Assembly (NCBI GenBank): GCA_030688735.1 | Contig: JAUYJC010000462.1 | Location: 1-37,404, forward strand | Direction: 5' to 3' | DNA length: 37,404 nt | Origin: Deltaproteobacteria bacterium | GTDB taxonomy: Bacteria > Desulfobacterota > Binatia > UBA9968 | Made by a program: the position numbers and the translations under genes | The notes under the pieces: model-generated | What the model saw: only the letters and a program-made list of their open reading frames with translations | Told to the model about the DNA's origin: nothing | Databases searched by the model: none | Shown here: in pieces, positions 5,493-36,982 of the stretch | How positions within the stretch are numbered: the stretch's first letter is position 1 | How the letters are laid out: the number at the start of each line of letters is the position of its first letter

Positions 5493-10074
<4,582 letters not shown>

Positions 10075-10078
<4 letters not shown>

Positions 10079-11748
10079 TTTTTTCCCTCCCAAGTTCGCA
10101 TGAACACGATAACCGAAGCGATCTCCGCGTCCGTAAGAGTTTGCCGGACGGACGAACCGGCGCCGAAGGCCACCATCGACGAGCCGCGGCGGCCGTCCTG
10201 AATGGTCTTGAAGAGATAGGTATCGGTGGCGAGATCGAGAAAAACACGATTGTTGAGCGCGGGGCCTTCCTTGCCTTCGCCGCGGTCGCCGTGACAGGAG
10301 GCGCAGACGTCGGCATAAAGACGTTGTCCGGCCGCCGCATCCCCCTCGGCCCAACGGCGCGGCTTGGCGTCCCCCGCGTACGCGACCCCGCCCAGGTCGC
10401 GCAGATAAACCACTAAACGATCGACTTCCTCGTCGCGCAGACCGCTCTCCGACTCGCCCCAAGCCGGCATTCTTCGGCCCGGGCGGCCGCGCTTGATCTG
10501 CGCGCGCAACACATCATCGGAAACAAGGCGTAGATAATCGGCATTGGCGATGGCCGGAAATGCCGCCAGGCCGGGGTAACGCATGCCCTCGCCGTTTGAA
10601 CCATGGCAGGCGGCGCAGAAGGTTCCGTAGAGGGTCGCGCCGTCGGTGGCGAATTCCCTTGTGCCGAAGCGCTCGGCGCGAATGCGATCTTTCGGCCAAA
10701 GCGCCTGGGCGAAATTTCTCCGCCGCAGCGACAGCATGTAATAAGTCAAATGATCGATCTGGCGCTCGGTCAAACCCAATTCCGGCATGGCGGATCCCCG
10801 CACCACCGAGGCCGGGGCGCGAAAATGCTGCTTCAACCAATTGGCCAGCGTCCGCTCGCCGGCGACTTGTGCGAAGTTGAGTTGCCCCGGATCGAGATTT
10901 CCCGCCGCGGTCAGGTCCGGACCGTCGTCGCCGCCGACGCCGCGCACTTTGTGGCAGCCGCGGCATCCCGCTGTATGAAAAACCGCCTTGGCTTCGAGCA
11001 AACCGGGCGCGCCGACTCTGGAACGGAGAAATTCATCGATGGCCAGCCGTTCCGCTTCACCGAGCTCGCCGAACGCGGAAAGCCAGGGACCCGTGGGAGC
11101 CTTTTTTTTCTGCGCCAGATGTTGCGCGTACCAATCCGGCTTAAAACCGCTGGCGCCGACGCGTGATAGATCCGGTCCTTCCTGGCCGCCGGCTCCGCCC
11201 GGACGCAGCGTGCCGCCGCGCCCCTCGAGTTTGTGACAAGCCAAACAATCCGCTTGCTCAAAGCGGATTCTCCCCTGTTCGAGCCGCGCGAGATTGGGCA
11301 CGCTCAAGTGGGTGTGGCAGCCGCCGCAACCGGCATACAGATAGGCATTGGGAAGCATCGGTTCGGGCCAGTGCTCCACTTTGCCGTGGGCATCGGCGGT
11401 CTGGGTAGCCCGCCCCTGACCGCCGTGGCAAACGGTACAACCGTAAACCGCGGGATCATGGACGACATCTCTGTGGCGCCCGTAGAGGCGGTCGCCCTCG
11501 ATGCCGCTCTCGCCCTGCGCCATGCCGACATGGCAACTGACGCAGCGGTCGGTGGCGCCGATGTCGCGGCTGACGATCTGGCGCAGTTGAATCGAGAAGG
11601 CAGCGGCTTGGGATGCCGTCAGACGGGCCTCGACCTGGCGCTGAATCAGGCGCCAGTCGCTCAAAAAATTTTCCCGCACGGCGGCCCCAACCAACACGGC
11701 GAGCGCCACCAGGCTCGACCACAGAAGCAGGTGTTTGTTGGCTTTCAT
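10075..11748 (-). CDS. Heptaheme c-type cytochrome, membrane-anchored
   Basis: This 557-residue protein has an N-terminal hydrophobic anchor (residues 7-24) and seven CXXCH heme-c sites at residues 69, 104, 141, 168, 262, 378 and 482. The first four lie in a compact tetraheme-like block. The last three sit in mono-heme cytochrome-c-like modules; for the last two the following text (HGSNGEG, HGDRGEG) and Met-containing loops ([18 protein letters not shown]) look like class I cytochrome c. It lies between the cytochrome b and alpha-subunit genes and probably wires the Rieske/cytochrome b module to the molybdoenzyme in the periplasm. It overlaps nxrA by 4 nt and follows the cytochrome b gene after 57 nt. 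Confidence 0.88.
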
Positions 11749-16739: not shown

Positions 16740-16967
16740 CCCGAATTCCGCAGTTGAACATGCGCGAGGGGCGAGCCTGGAGCGGCGAAGACACCCAGGG
16801 GTGCTGTTTCAAAGTCTTTTCTGCCGCTTGGCACGACGCCTTATTACTCCGACTAAATTCGCACAGCAGCGAGATCTGTCCTTAGCTCAGGGGTAGAAAA
16901 GCATTGTCTTCGTTGCACAAGGTTTGCCCCTCGCTCACAGCGTCACTTTCCTACTGCGGAATCCGGG
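16740..16967 (+). mobile_element. MITE-like element, copy 1 (228 bp)
   Basis: The ends are inverted repeats (CCCGAATTCCGCAGT at the left; ACTGCGGAATCCGGG at the right, one mismatch). The element is flanked by a 5-bp direct repeat TTTAA (16735-16739 and 16968-16972), a target-site duplication. It has no transposase ORF. About 90% of its length matches the element at 33251-33502, which has its own different target duplication. It is therefore a non-autonomous element mobilised in trans; the parental transposon is not in the window. Confidence 0.85.
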
Positions 16968-17133
16968 TTTAAAGTTTCAATAGTGTATTTTTGAAATTTA
17001 CCCAACACTCCTTGGCTCAGGGGTGACTCCAAACGGCTTTTGCGCAAATAATCGTGTTGACTATTTCACAGAGATCGAGGTAGAGGTGGCACGATGCTGG
17101 TCGAGTCGCGCCTCTCAATCAAGGAGACACACC

Positions 17134-33250: not shown

Positions 33251-33502
33251 CCCGAATTCCGCAGTTGAACATGAGCGAGGGGCGAACCCTTCGACTGCGC
33301 TCAGGACATGCCTGGAGCGGCGAAGACACCCAGGGGTGCTGTTTCAAAGTCTTTTCTGCCGCCTGGCACAACGCTTTATTACTCCGACTAAATTCGCACA
33401 GCAGCGAGATCTGTCCTTAGCTCAGGGGTAGAAAAGCATTGTCTTCGTTGCGCAAGGTTTGCCCCTCGCTCACAGCGTCACTTTCCCACTGCGCAATCCG
33501 GG
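33251..33502 (+). mobile_element. MITE-like element, copy 2 (252 bp)
   Basis: The inverted ends CCCGAATTCCGCAGT (33251-33265) and ACTGCGCAATCCGGG (33488-33502) are flanked by the direct repeat ATCAT (33246-33250 and 33503-33507). It matches copy 1 in the same orientation, apart from scattered substitutions and a 24-bp extra block (about 33279-33302) that carries the CCTTCGACT..GCTCAGGA motif. It has no transposase. Confidence 0.85.
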
Positions 33503-33548
33503 ATCATTGTTATGTGTGACCCCGGACGCCGGACAATCCGATGCGAGG

Positions 33549-34506: not shown

Positions 34507-35562
34507 ATGGACGCGGAAGAACCCACGAAAAAACCGGCCCTGCCGAGAGCGCCGGATCCACCGCCCGACCTTGAGAGCATGAGCGACGACGAGCTCTTGC
34601 GCATGCGCATTTGCGACTTAAAGCTCAAGATCGCCGGCACCGAGCTCGAGTCGCGCATCGAAAAACTCGACGCGGAGCTTGCCGCCAAGGGTATCGCCAT
34701 CAAACCGATCTGTTATCTCGGCGACGAGTGGTTTTGCCCTGAAGGCAGCGCCACCATCGCGATCCCCTTCTATCTAGCGCATCCGCGCCTAAAAAAGCTC
34801 GAAGAAAGGATGATGATGGAGGTCGAAGGCGGCACGGAAACATGGTGCATGCGGCTCCTGCGCCATGAGATGGGGCATGTCCTCAATCACGCCTATCTGA
34901 TGGCGAAGGATAAACGCTGGCAAAAACTATTCGGACCGACATCGCTCGAATATTCGGAAAGTTACCGCGCGCGTCCTTATAGCCGCCGCTTCGTACGCCA
35001 CCTGGACGACTATTACGCTCAGAGCCACCCGGAAGAAGACTTCGCGGAGACCGTGGCGATCTGGCTCACTCCCGATCTTGAGTGGCGGCAGCAATATCGC
35101 GATTGGAAAGCGTTGGAAAAGATCGAATACGTCGACGGCATCATGCAAAAGCTCGCGGGCACACCGCCGCTGGTTTTTTCCCGCGCCAAGATCAGCGACG
35201 CCTCTCGCCTCCGATCAAAGCTTGAAGCCCACTATAAAAGACGTCGGCGCACCTACGCGCAGGAATTCCCTGACTTCTTCGATGCCGATCTGAAGAAGCT
35301 CTTCGTTGGAGCCACGGCCTCGCCGGACAGCGAGCGTGCGGCGGTGTTTTTGCGGCGCACGAATAAGTCAATTCTCAGTGCCGTTTCCACTTGGACCGGC
35401 GAACCGAAGTTTACGATCAACCGCCTGCTGCGCGCGCTCACCGAGCGCTGCGCCGAGCTCGATCTAAGATTGAAAACGGAGTCCGCTGGTGTTGAAATCG
35501 CCGCCTACTTGGCGACGCTGGCGTCGCATTATCGCCTCACCGGCAGATTCAAAGGTCCCTGA
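34507..35562 (+). CDS. Putative zinc-dependent metallopeptidase (zincin)
   Basis: This 351-residue protein has an HEXXH site at H120-E121-M-G-H124 (LLRHEMGHVLNHAY) and a downstream acidic helix SHPEEDFAETVAIWL (172-186) that could provide the third ligand (H174 or E181). This arrangement matches uncharacterised putative zinc-binding metallopeptidases. The N-terminus is Pro-rich and polar, with no signal peptide, so it is cytoplasmic. The stop is 2 nt before the start of the ATP-grasp gene, so the two are co-translated. A peptide-processing function with the ligase is inferred; the substrate is unknown. Confidence 0.8.
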   Translation: MDAEEPTKKPALPRAPDPPPDLESMSDDELLRMRICDLKLKIAGTELESRIEKLDAELAAKGIAIKPICYLGDEWFCPEGSATIAIPFYLAHPRLKKLEERMMMEVEGGTETWCMRLLRHEMGHVLNHAYLMAKDKRWQKLFGPTSLEYSESYRARPYSRRFVRHLDDYYAQSHPEEDFAETVAIWLTPDLEWRQQYRDWKALEKIEYVDGIMQKLAGTPPLVFSRAKISDASRLRSKLEAHYKRRRRTYAQEFPDFFDADLKKLFVGATASPDSERAAVFLRRTNKSILSAVSTWTGEPKFTINRLLRALTERCAELDLRLKTESAGVEIAAYLATLASHYRLTGRFKGP

Positions 35563-35564
35563 CC

Positions 35565-36590
35565 GTGGTGCGAGCAAAGAAGCGATACAAAGTTCTCGTG
35601 CTGTTCGACAGCGCCGGCACGCCGCCAGAGAATCAGGATTTTAGCAAAGAACTGAAAACTGATGATTTTGCCGCTGAAGCGCATGTCATCGGCGCGCTCA
35701 AAAAACTCGGCCACGAAGTGCGCACACTCGGCATCTGGGACGAAGCGGATCTGATCATCGACGAGCTCAAAGCCAATCCGCCCGACATCGTGTTCAATCT
35801 CACCGAACATTTTAATGAAGTATCGGCCTACGACCGCAACGTCGCCGGCCTGCTCGAGATGTTGGGCGTGCCCTACACGGGTTCGAGTCCTACCGGCTTG
35901 ACGCTCTGCAAGAACAAAGGCATGGCGAAAGAACTGCTTACCTATCATAAAATCCGCGTGCCGAATTTCGCCGTCTACTCTCCGGGCGCAACGATCAAGC
36001 GGCCGAATCGTCTCAAGTTTCCCCTATTCATAAAACCGGCAGAAGACGAGGCTTCCTACGGCATTTCGTTGGACTCGTTTGTCGAAGATGACGCGGCCTT
36101 CGAGGAACGGATTCGATTCATTCATGAGCGCATGAATCAGCCGGCGCTGGCCGAGGAATACATCGAAGGTCGAGAAATCTACGTGAGCCTGCTGGGCAAC
36201 GAGCGTTTGCGCGTGTTTCCATTTCGCGAAGTGATTTTCACCGAGATCCCGGAAGGGCAACCCAGATTCTCTACTTTCAAAACCAAGTGGGACGATGCCT
36301 ACCGCAAACGCTGGGGCATCCAAAACGTCTTCGCCGAGCCCTTTTCCAACGGCACCAACCAACGCATCGCGAAAATCTGCAAGGCCGTCTACCGCGCCCT
36401 GCGCATCCGCGGTTACGGCCGCATCGATTTGCGCGTCACCCCCGCGGAAGAAATCGTCGTTCTCGAAGCCAATCCCAATCCGAATTTGGACCGAGACGAT
36501 GAGTTTGCCCAATCGGCGATCAAAGCAGGCGTAAGTTTTCCGCGCCTCGTGCAGCGAATCCTCAAGCTCGCCCTGGCGGCGGCGCACTAA
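35565..36590 (+). CDS. ATP-grasp ligase, D-Ala-D-Ala ligase-like
   Basis: This 341-residue protein belongs to the ATP-grasp fold (carboxylate-amine ligase). It shows an N-terminal Rossmann-like domain (KVLVLFDSAGTP) and a middle block VPYTGSSPTGLTLCKNKGMAKELL. The ATP-binding region is FPLFIKPAEDEASYGIS and the C-terminal Mg-binding segment VLEANPNPNLD. It differs enough from Ddl (long inserts, TEHFNE in place of usual loops) that cell-wall synthesis is unlikely. The GTG start at 35565 is 2 nt after the peptidase stop. Peptide ligation or amidation paired with the peptidase is the best inference. Confidence 0.85.
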   Translation: MVRAKKRYKVLVLFDSAGTPPENQDFSKELKTDDFAAEAHVIGALKKLGHEVRTLGIWDEADLIIDELKANPPDIVFNLTEHFNEVSAYDRNVAGLLEMLGVPYTGSSPTGLTLCKNKGMAKELLTYHKIRVPNFAVYSPGATIKRPNRLKFPLFIKPAEDEASYGISLDSFVEDDAAFEERIRFIHERMNQPALAEEYIEGREIYVSLLGNERLRVFPFREVIFTEIPEGQPRFSTFKTKWDDAYRKRWGIQNVFAEPFSNGTNQRIAKICKAVYRALRIRGYGRIDLRVTPAEEIVVLEANPNPNLDRDDEFAQSAIKAGVSFPRLVQRILKLALAAAH

Positions 36591-36982
36591 GCGGGGCGGG
36601 AAATGGGGACAGGCTAGTTTTCGGATTCTGCTGAAAAACCCTATGAATGCTTCGACGAGGCTCATACTTCGACAGGCTCAAAAGAACGGAAAATCTGCAA
36701 TGATTTCAGAGGCTCCTCCGTTCGTCCTGAGGCTCTCGAAGGATGAACGCAGGGTTTTTCAGCAGAATCTTTTCGGAAATCGGGGGTCAGAGTGAGCCGC
36801 CTCCGGTTTCGCGGTTTGATATGATGCTGCCCATGCGGATACTTTCTGCCGAAAGCAGGTACGGACCCGGTTCCCTTTGACCAGCTATGGAACGAAGTGG
36901 TGCTGTGCCACCTTTTCGACCAGCGGCAGTAGAGATTGCCCCGGGCCGGGCGTGGCAATGACGCTTGGGGAGGGATCGACCT
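36591..36982. other. Gene-free region holding a palindromic mobile element
   Basis: The gap between the ATP-grasp gene and the MetE-like fragment encodes nothing recognisable. It is largely filled by the palindromic element at 36624-36769; the remainder shows no motif that I can name. Confidence 0.5.
36624..36769. mobile_element. Palindromic MITE-like element (146 bp)
   Basis: The termini are perfect 19-bp inverted repeats (GATTCTGCTGAAAAACCCT at 36624-36642 and its complement at 36751-36769). The internal arms (TACTTCGACAGGCTC against GAGGCTCTCGAAGGAT) are also inverted, so the entire element can fold. It is flanked by the direct repeat TTTTCG (36618-36623 and 36770-36775), a 6-bp target duplication. 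It differs from the 228/252-bp elements and has no ORF. Confidence 0.82.

Follow-up and report, generated by a model that had tools for sequence, protein, structure and literature searches.

What do a zinc peptidase and a ligase of the ATP-grasp fold accomplish together, when their genes stand side by side in the genome of a deltaproteobacterium? The window, i.e. the whole stretch of 37,404 nucleotides analysed here, corresponds to contig C336 in an assembly of 634 contigs and 6.76 Mb. The original prediction had placed in it a cytoplasmic HEXXH protein co-translated with an ATP-grasp enzyme that is Ddl-like but divergent, and had suggested that the two could make or trim a new peptide or amide metabolite. 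Both open reading frames were found, with the metallopeptidase motif intact and with Pfam matches to PF15887 and PF07478, respectively.

The peptidase gene (34507..35562, forward strand) begins with ATG, encodes 351 amino acids and ends with TGA at 35560-35562. A gap of two bases (35563..35564, forward strand) precedes the GTG start of the predicted Ddl-fold ATP-grasp amidoligase gene (35565..36590, forward strand, 341 aa), in which a second GTG is present at 35568. As only two bases separate TGA from GTG, the predicted co-translation is plausible. On the 5' side of the pair, Pfam identified two glutathione-transferase genes, an SH3-domain gene and a CoA-transferase.

Three other features of the window are recorded here. 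A 216-nt direct repeat, 93% identical, occurs at 16761-16976 and 33296-33511 with 16.5 kb between the copies, which might represent an element dispersed through the genome. Just 3' of the ligase gene, at 36660-36765, an inverted-repeat-like stretch was noticed by eye (acttcgacaggctca ... tgaggctctcgaaggatgaacg). Finally, translations of the region 5493-10462 on the reverse strand resemble molybdopterin oxidoreductases and ferredoxins, forming a large gene set.

The peptidase carries the sequence LLRHEMGH, whose HExxH codons (H120-E-M-G-H124) lie at 34864..34878 on the forward strand, as computed from residues 120-124 of the ORF. Its match to PF15887 (Peptidase_Mx) scored 33.9 bits against a gathering cut-off of 27 and spans only profile positions 90-164 of 236, which correspond to the catalytic core. 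Residues H120, E121, H124, Y170, E177 and E181 are invariant in all 90 peptidases of alignment A2, every one of which matched PF15887 at E<=0.01. Because the motif and the family match hold throughout and the order of the pair is kept, the finding is not a chance one. The other invariant residues fall into the block Y170-A-Q-S-H-P-E-E177-D-F-A-E181 (35014..35049, forward strand, from residue numbers), defined by the invariant columns of alignments A1 and A2. We take Y178 and E185 to be zinc-site residues of PPEP-1; since their Y-x6-E spacing equals that of Y170-x6-E177, E177 is likely the third zinc ligand and Y170 the putative transition-state tyrosine. No signal peptide was evident by eye.

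In the AlphaFold2 model (pLDDT 90.2) the catalytic core lies at residues ~41-220, the C-terminal part being helical. Foldseek found no match for the model in the PDB at E<=0.001, and a sequence search against solved structures returned nothing relevant. When residues ~41-220 were compared by VIA-align, M34-type gluzincins ranked first, with the catalytic domain of lethal factor (Z 10.5, 135 residues, 3.0 A), PPEP-3 (Z 8.5) and a putative zinc peptidase of Bacteroides (4l7a, Z 7.4). The fold which the model appears to share with M34/PPEP enzymes says nothing of the function of the peptidase. Assignment to TIGR04549, the substrate-import zinc hydrolase lipoproteins, was rejected (25.7 bits against the NCBIfam cut-off of 75).

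The ligase matched PF07478 (Dala_Dala_lig_C) with 90.2 bits (E 1.7e-25, gathering cut-off 24), and its AlphaFold2 model (pLDDT 92.7) matched Ddl structures with a best E of 2.3e-24. Is it, then, a D-Ala-D-Ala ligase? Against TIGR01205 (Ddl) it reached 109.3-109.6 bits, far below the NCBIfam cut-off of 245.65, while the same genome encodes a true Ddl on contig C232 (372.6 bits). A quick tree with 57 rows, built with every third row of the alignment of 76 pair ligases, set nine Ddl rows apart (100) and united the 26 pair ligases in one clade (100). The ligase is therefore Ddl-like in fold but divergent, as had been claimed, and the D-Ala-D-Ala ligase of the cell is another protein.

The residues point in the same direction. 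Like Ddl, the pair ligases combine the ATP-grasp fold with the catalytic K, R, D, E and N (K241, R286, D288, E301 and N303, kept in 76/76). They differ from it in that HGxxGEDG, which we take to be the Ddl signature and which is found in the own-genome Ddl, occurs in none of the 76. A second Ddl pattern failed on the own-genome Ddl as well and was dropped. Residues 81 and 313 are acidic in all 76 pair ligases, and 74 of these also have an acidic residue 312; by sequence alignment with E. coli DdlB, we take residue 81 to stand at the position of His63 and residues 312 and 313 at that of Ser281, so that an acidic residue stands at the former and an acidic pair replaces the latter.

A zinc peptidase beside a Ddl homologue is also the layout of VanA/VanX, and together with the PF07478 match and the Ddl fold it could suggest an alternative D-Ala-D-X ligase working with a D,D-peptidase on peptidoglycan. 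VanX, however, has an M15 fold without HEXXH, and a separate strong PF07478 match was present in 8 of the 12 partner genomes examined. In three of these twelve, the Pirellulaceae-type planctomycetes G297, G302 and G303 (loci L137, L152 and L168), the best PF07478 match was the pair ligase itself, and a follow-up of seven genomes found neither TIGR01205 nor TIGR01143 (MurF) above cut-off in any of the three. The other four had MurF above cut-off, the Ddl match of G306 (176 bits) lying below the cut-off of TIGR01205. As locus L152 is on the chromosome record of Planctomycetes bacterium TBK1r, an assembly gap is an unlikely reason for the absence of Ddl and MurF in G302. A role in peptidoglycan is unlikely for a ligase that persists where Ddl and MurF are lacking. 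The low TIGR01205 score, the separate Ddl, the lost motif, the tree and the genomes with no Ddl or MurF above cut-off led us to reject a Ddl or VanA/VanX identity, and we regard a peptidoglycan role as very improbable. In databases the pair ligases are likely annotated as D-Ala-D-Ala ligases, which in G297, G302 and G303 would mislead; in planctomycete genomes this ligase alone gives no ground for inferring Ddl or peptidoglycan.

The original prediction looked to other genomes for conservation of the pair, and it is conserved there. A contig scan with a 19-sequence alignment gave at least 544 confirmed relatives, from which the best 80 were kept, so that close relatives are favoured. Among these best 80 of at least 544, the ligase gene lies directly 3' of the peptidase gene and in the same orientation in 76; at the remaining four the contig ends 0-284 nt past the peptidase. 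By their record titles, these best 80 represent about 13 phyla, including Acidobacteriota, Verrucomicrobiota, Planctomycetota, Omnitrophota, Nitrospirota, Bdellovibrionota, Pseudomonadota, Fibrobacterota, Kiritimatiellota, Methylomirabilota and candidate phyla, and the pair is also carried among them by Deltaproteobacteria, also labelled Myxococcota. The median spacing between the genes is -1.5 nt with the start codons chosen in this analysis. At seven high-GC loci (L060, L061, L082, L087, L089, L091 and L096), homology or codon-position GC served to locate the relevant genes. The tree of the peptidases closely follows that of the ligases (distance correlation r 0.92 over 76 pairs, a value that includes a share from common species history; best of 500 shuffles 0.11).

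Co-occurrence, for which the counts are confounded by kinship, was assessed in 199 planctomycete genomes (peptidase in 49, ligase at E<=1e-40 in 54, both in 48) and in 297 genomes of the window's phylum (peptidase in 22, ligase in 49, both in 22/22). The genes are adjacent and co-oriented in 39 of the 49 peptidase-bearing planctomycete genomes and non-adjacent in the other ten, and 6 of the 54 ligase-bearing ones lack the peptidase; for the strongest planctomycete peptidase matches, all 30 loci returned were adjacent to the ligase. Single cases include a peptidase without ligase (G486), a strong ligase with no peptidase detected (G371), a pair cut at a contig edge (G504) and genomes with both genes unlinked (G311, G389 and G439). 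In G439 a gene for a retropepsin-like aspartyl protease (L264:6202-6663) overlaps the start of the unlinked peptidase gene. Within the window's phylum the pair is adjacent in five of 22 (the window genome, G198, G209, G056 and G092), the other 17 peptidases belonging to two families whose ligases are encoded elsewhere in the genome.

The non-adjacent peptidases of these two groups (17/22 and 10/49) are what one would cite for chance neighbours with unrelated functions. Against this stand the adjacency at 76 of the best 80 loci across about 13 phyla, the mirror trees and the lack of a third neighbour; the conservation of the pair refutes such a reading, to which we give next to no credence. No match was obtained in plasmids, phages or viral contigs, the viral scan, made with a single sequence, covering close relatives only, and phage or plasmid cargo was rejected on this result.

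Two further checks named in the original prediction, for a third gene and for a short precursor peptide nearby, came out negative. Clustering of all ORFs of at least 80 codons in 84 loci revealed no third conserved gene; the other clusters were frames overlapping the pair or groups of at most eight loci, mainly from related planctomycetes. In one case (G454) the peptidase and the ligase are separated by a kinase/cyclase and by an ORF of 249 aa that matched no Pfam family. Likewise, no conserved precursor peptide (an ORF of 20-110 aa within 1 kb) was found in 77 loci, 63 of them with full flanks, on which basis a graspetide (RiPP) cluster was rejected. An Anbu/alpha-E/CP-ATP-grasp operon was dismissed too, as such neighbours are not conserved in the 84 loci and the window has GST and CoA-transferase genes instead. 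Given that the module comprises just two genes and that no precursor of its own came to light, the substrates of the pair are probably common cell components.

These results bear on a sequential maturation, in which the peptidase would trim a protein or peptide and expose a carboxylate or amine, to which the ligase would then add an amino acid or amine (tailing). Where the genes are adjacent and co-oriented, the order is always peptidase then ligase, and the fold matches of the peptidase are endopeptidases. In the available sections of PMC8939145, moreover, the peptidases of graspetide branches 7 and 8 are proposed to supply peptides from proteins encoded elsewhere. However, no conserved precursor was found within 1 kb, and gene order is not separable from order of action, so that we consider this pathway possible but doubtful.

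The sisters of the pair ligases offer another view. The closest of them (97) are either the second-position ligases of tandem operons or ligases adjoining lysine 2,3-aminomutase. Loci L077-L079, L081, L083 and L085 hold operons in which two Ddl-like ATP-grasp ligases stand in tandem; at L079 Pfam identified, in order, deoxyhypusine synthase, an arginase-family gene and pyruvoyl arginine decarboxylase (PvlArgDC), followed by the two ligases. These operons look like a polyamine-conjugating pathway. Although they represent a sister clade, they differ from the pair in having two ligases and no adjoining zincin. At L080 and L092-L094, four loci of one family with the same gene order (Pfam in L094), a Ddl-like ligase adjoins lysine 2,3-aminomutase.

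ATP-grasp enzymes of the Ddl type are known for small-molecule substrates. This, and the sister ligases beside arginine decarboxylase, arginase-family, deoxyhypusine synthase or lysine 2,3-aminomutase genes, would fit a purely small-molecule metabolism without protein substrate, in which the ligase makes a dipeptide or aminoacyl-amine as storage compound, osmolyte or conjugate, which the peptidase recycles. On the other hand, the pair has no conserved neighbour that encodes a transporter, a decarboxylase or another pathway protein, and the matched M34-like zincins in the PDB are endopeptidases acting on proteins. We rate this metabolism as rather improbable, noting that it overlaps with the proposal set out below.

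Based on our observations, i.e. a co-inherited pair with intact catalytic motifs, a ligase that has lost Ddl features and no third gene, we tentatively suggest a self-contained two-gene module that makes and cuts an amide, and favour it, short of any firm commitment, over sequential maturation and purely small-molecule metabolism. The ligase would use ATP to activate a carboxylate as an acyl phosphate and would then join it to an amine, a chemistry that we infer from the Ddl-type ATP-grasp fold of its model. The co-expressed cytoplasmic zinc endopeptidase would cleave that amide, or a peptide carrying it, and together the two enzymes would set the level of one conjugate. As the genes travel together across phyla without a third partner, we infer that both act on one product, an amide-linked compound that they probably make and cut. 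Counted against such a make-and-cut module are the unlinked or solo ligases and the 17 of 22 peptidases of the window's phylum which do not lie beside a ligase.

The acceptor would perhaps be a cationic amine similar to polyamines or lysine. Two observations hint at this: the pair of acidic residues where Ddl would have Ser281, and the polyamine and lysine-aminomutase neighbourhoods of the sister ligases. This is the weakest step of the mechanism, as the polyamine context belongs to the sister clades and not to the pair. An unlikely extension is a phylum-spanning conjugation cycle, in which the ligase would tag proteins encoded elsewhere with a small group of amine or amino-acid type through an amide or isopeptide bond and the zincin would remove it; if true, it would constitute a bacterial tag/de-tag pair in Planctomycetota, Acidobacteriota, Verrucomicrobiota, Omnitrophota and others.

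The make-and-cut module would matter as two genes kept over long evolutionary spans in about a dozen phyla, hiding amide-bond chemistry behind a likely Ddl annotation. The pair itself is without a published description in the open-access literature, to which our search was confined, subscription papers being outside its scope; the pairing of peptidases with ATP-grasp enzymes is an established theme (PMC6376114, PMC5666114, PMC8939145, in the parts available), the first two, in those parts, describing predicted peptide ligases with peptidases. The available part of PMC6774946 shows no relation to the pair.

That ATP-grasp/peptidase pairs are known elsewhere, as the original prediction stated, holds for a Caballeronia plasmid, where the neighbours of a canonical Peptidase_Mx gene encode a transglutaminase, an alpha-E protein and a circularly permuted ATP-grasp enzyme. 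As a rule for Peptidase_Mx it fails: among five plasmid regions with the canonical protein, an ATP-grasp neighbour occurs in one and a transglutaminase neighbour in two, and the arrangement was not seen in G092. Parts of such Anbu-type operons share with the pair the Pfam peptidase family and an adjoining ATP-grasp gene, but have a different ATP-grasp type, extra genes and, in the canonical member, a PF10005 zinc ribbon. This ribbon is N-terminal in L221, the one member tested, and is not among the matches of the window peptidase at E<=1.

The M34/PPEP gluzincins appear alike in the fold of the catalytic core (Z 8-10.5 over ~135 residues). The search of solved structures by sequence gave no match to them, identity is 13-17%, the flanking parts differ and the peptidase has no secretion signal visible by eye. 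In RimK/RimB, Pup ligase/Dop, glutathionylspermidine synthetase/amidase and cyanophycin synthetase/cyanophycinase, a ligase and a hydrolase act on one amide conjugate. These pairs differ from the one described here in their hydrolase folds, which are unrelated, and in their ligases, which belong to other families.
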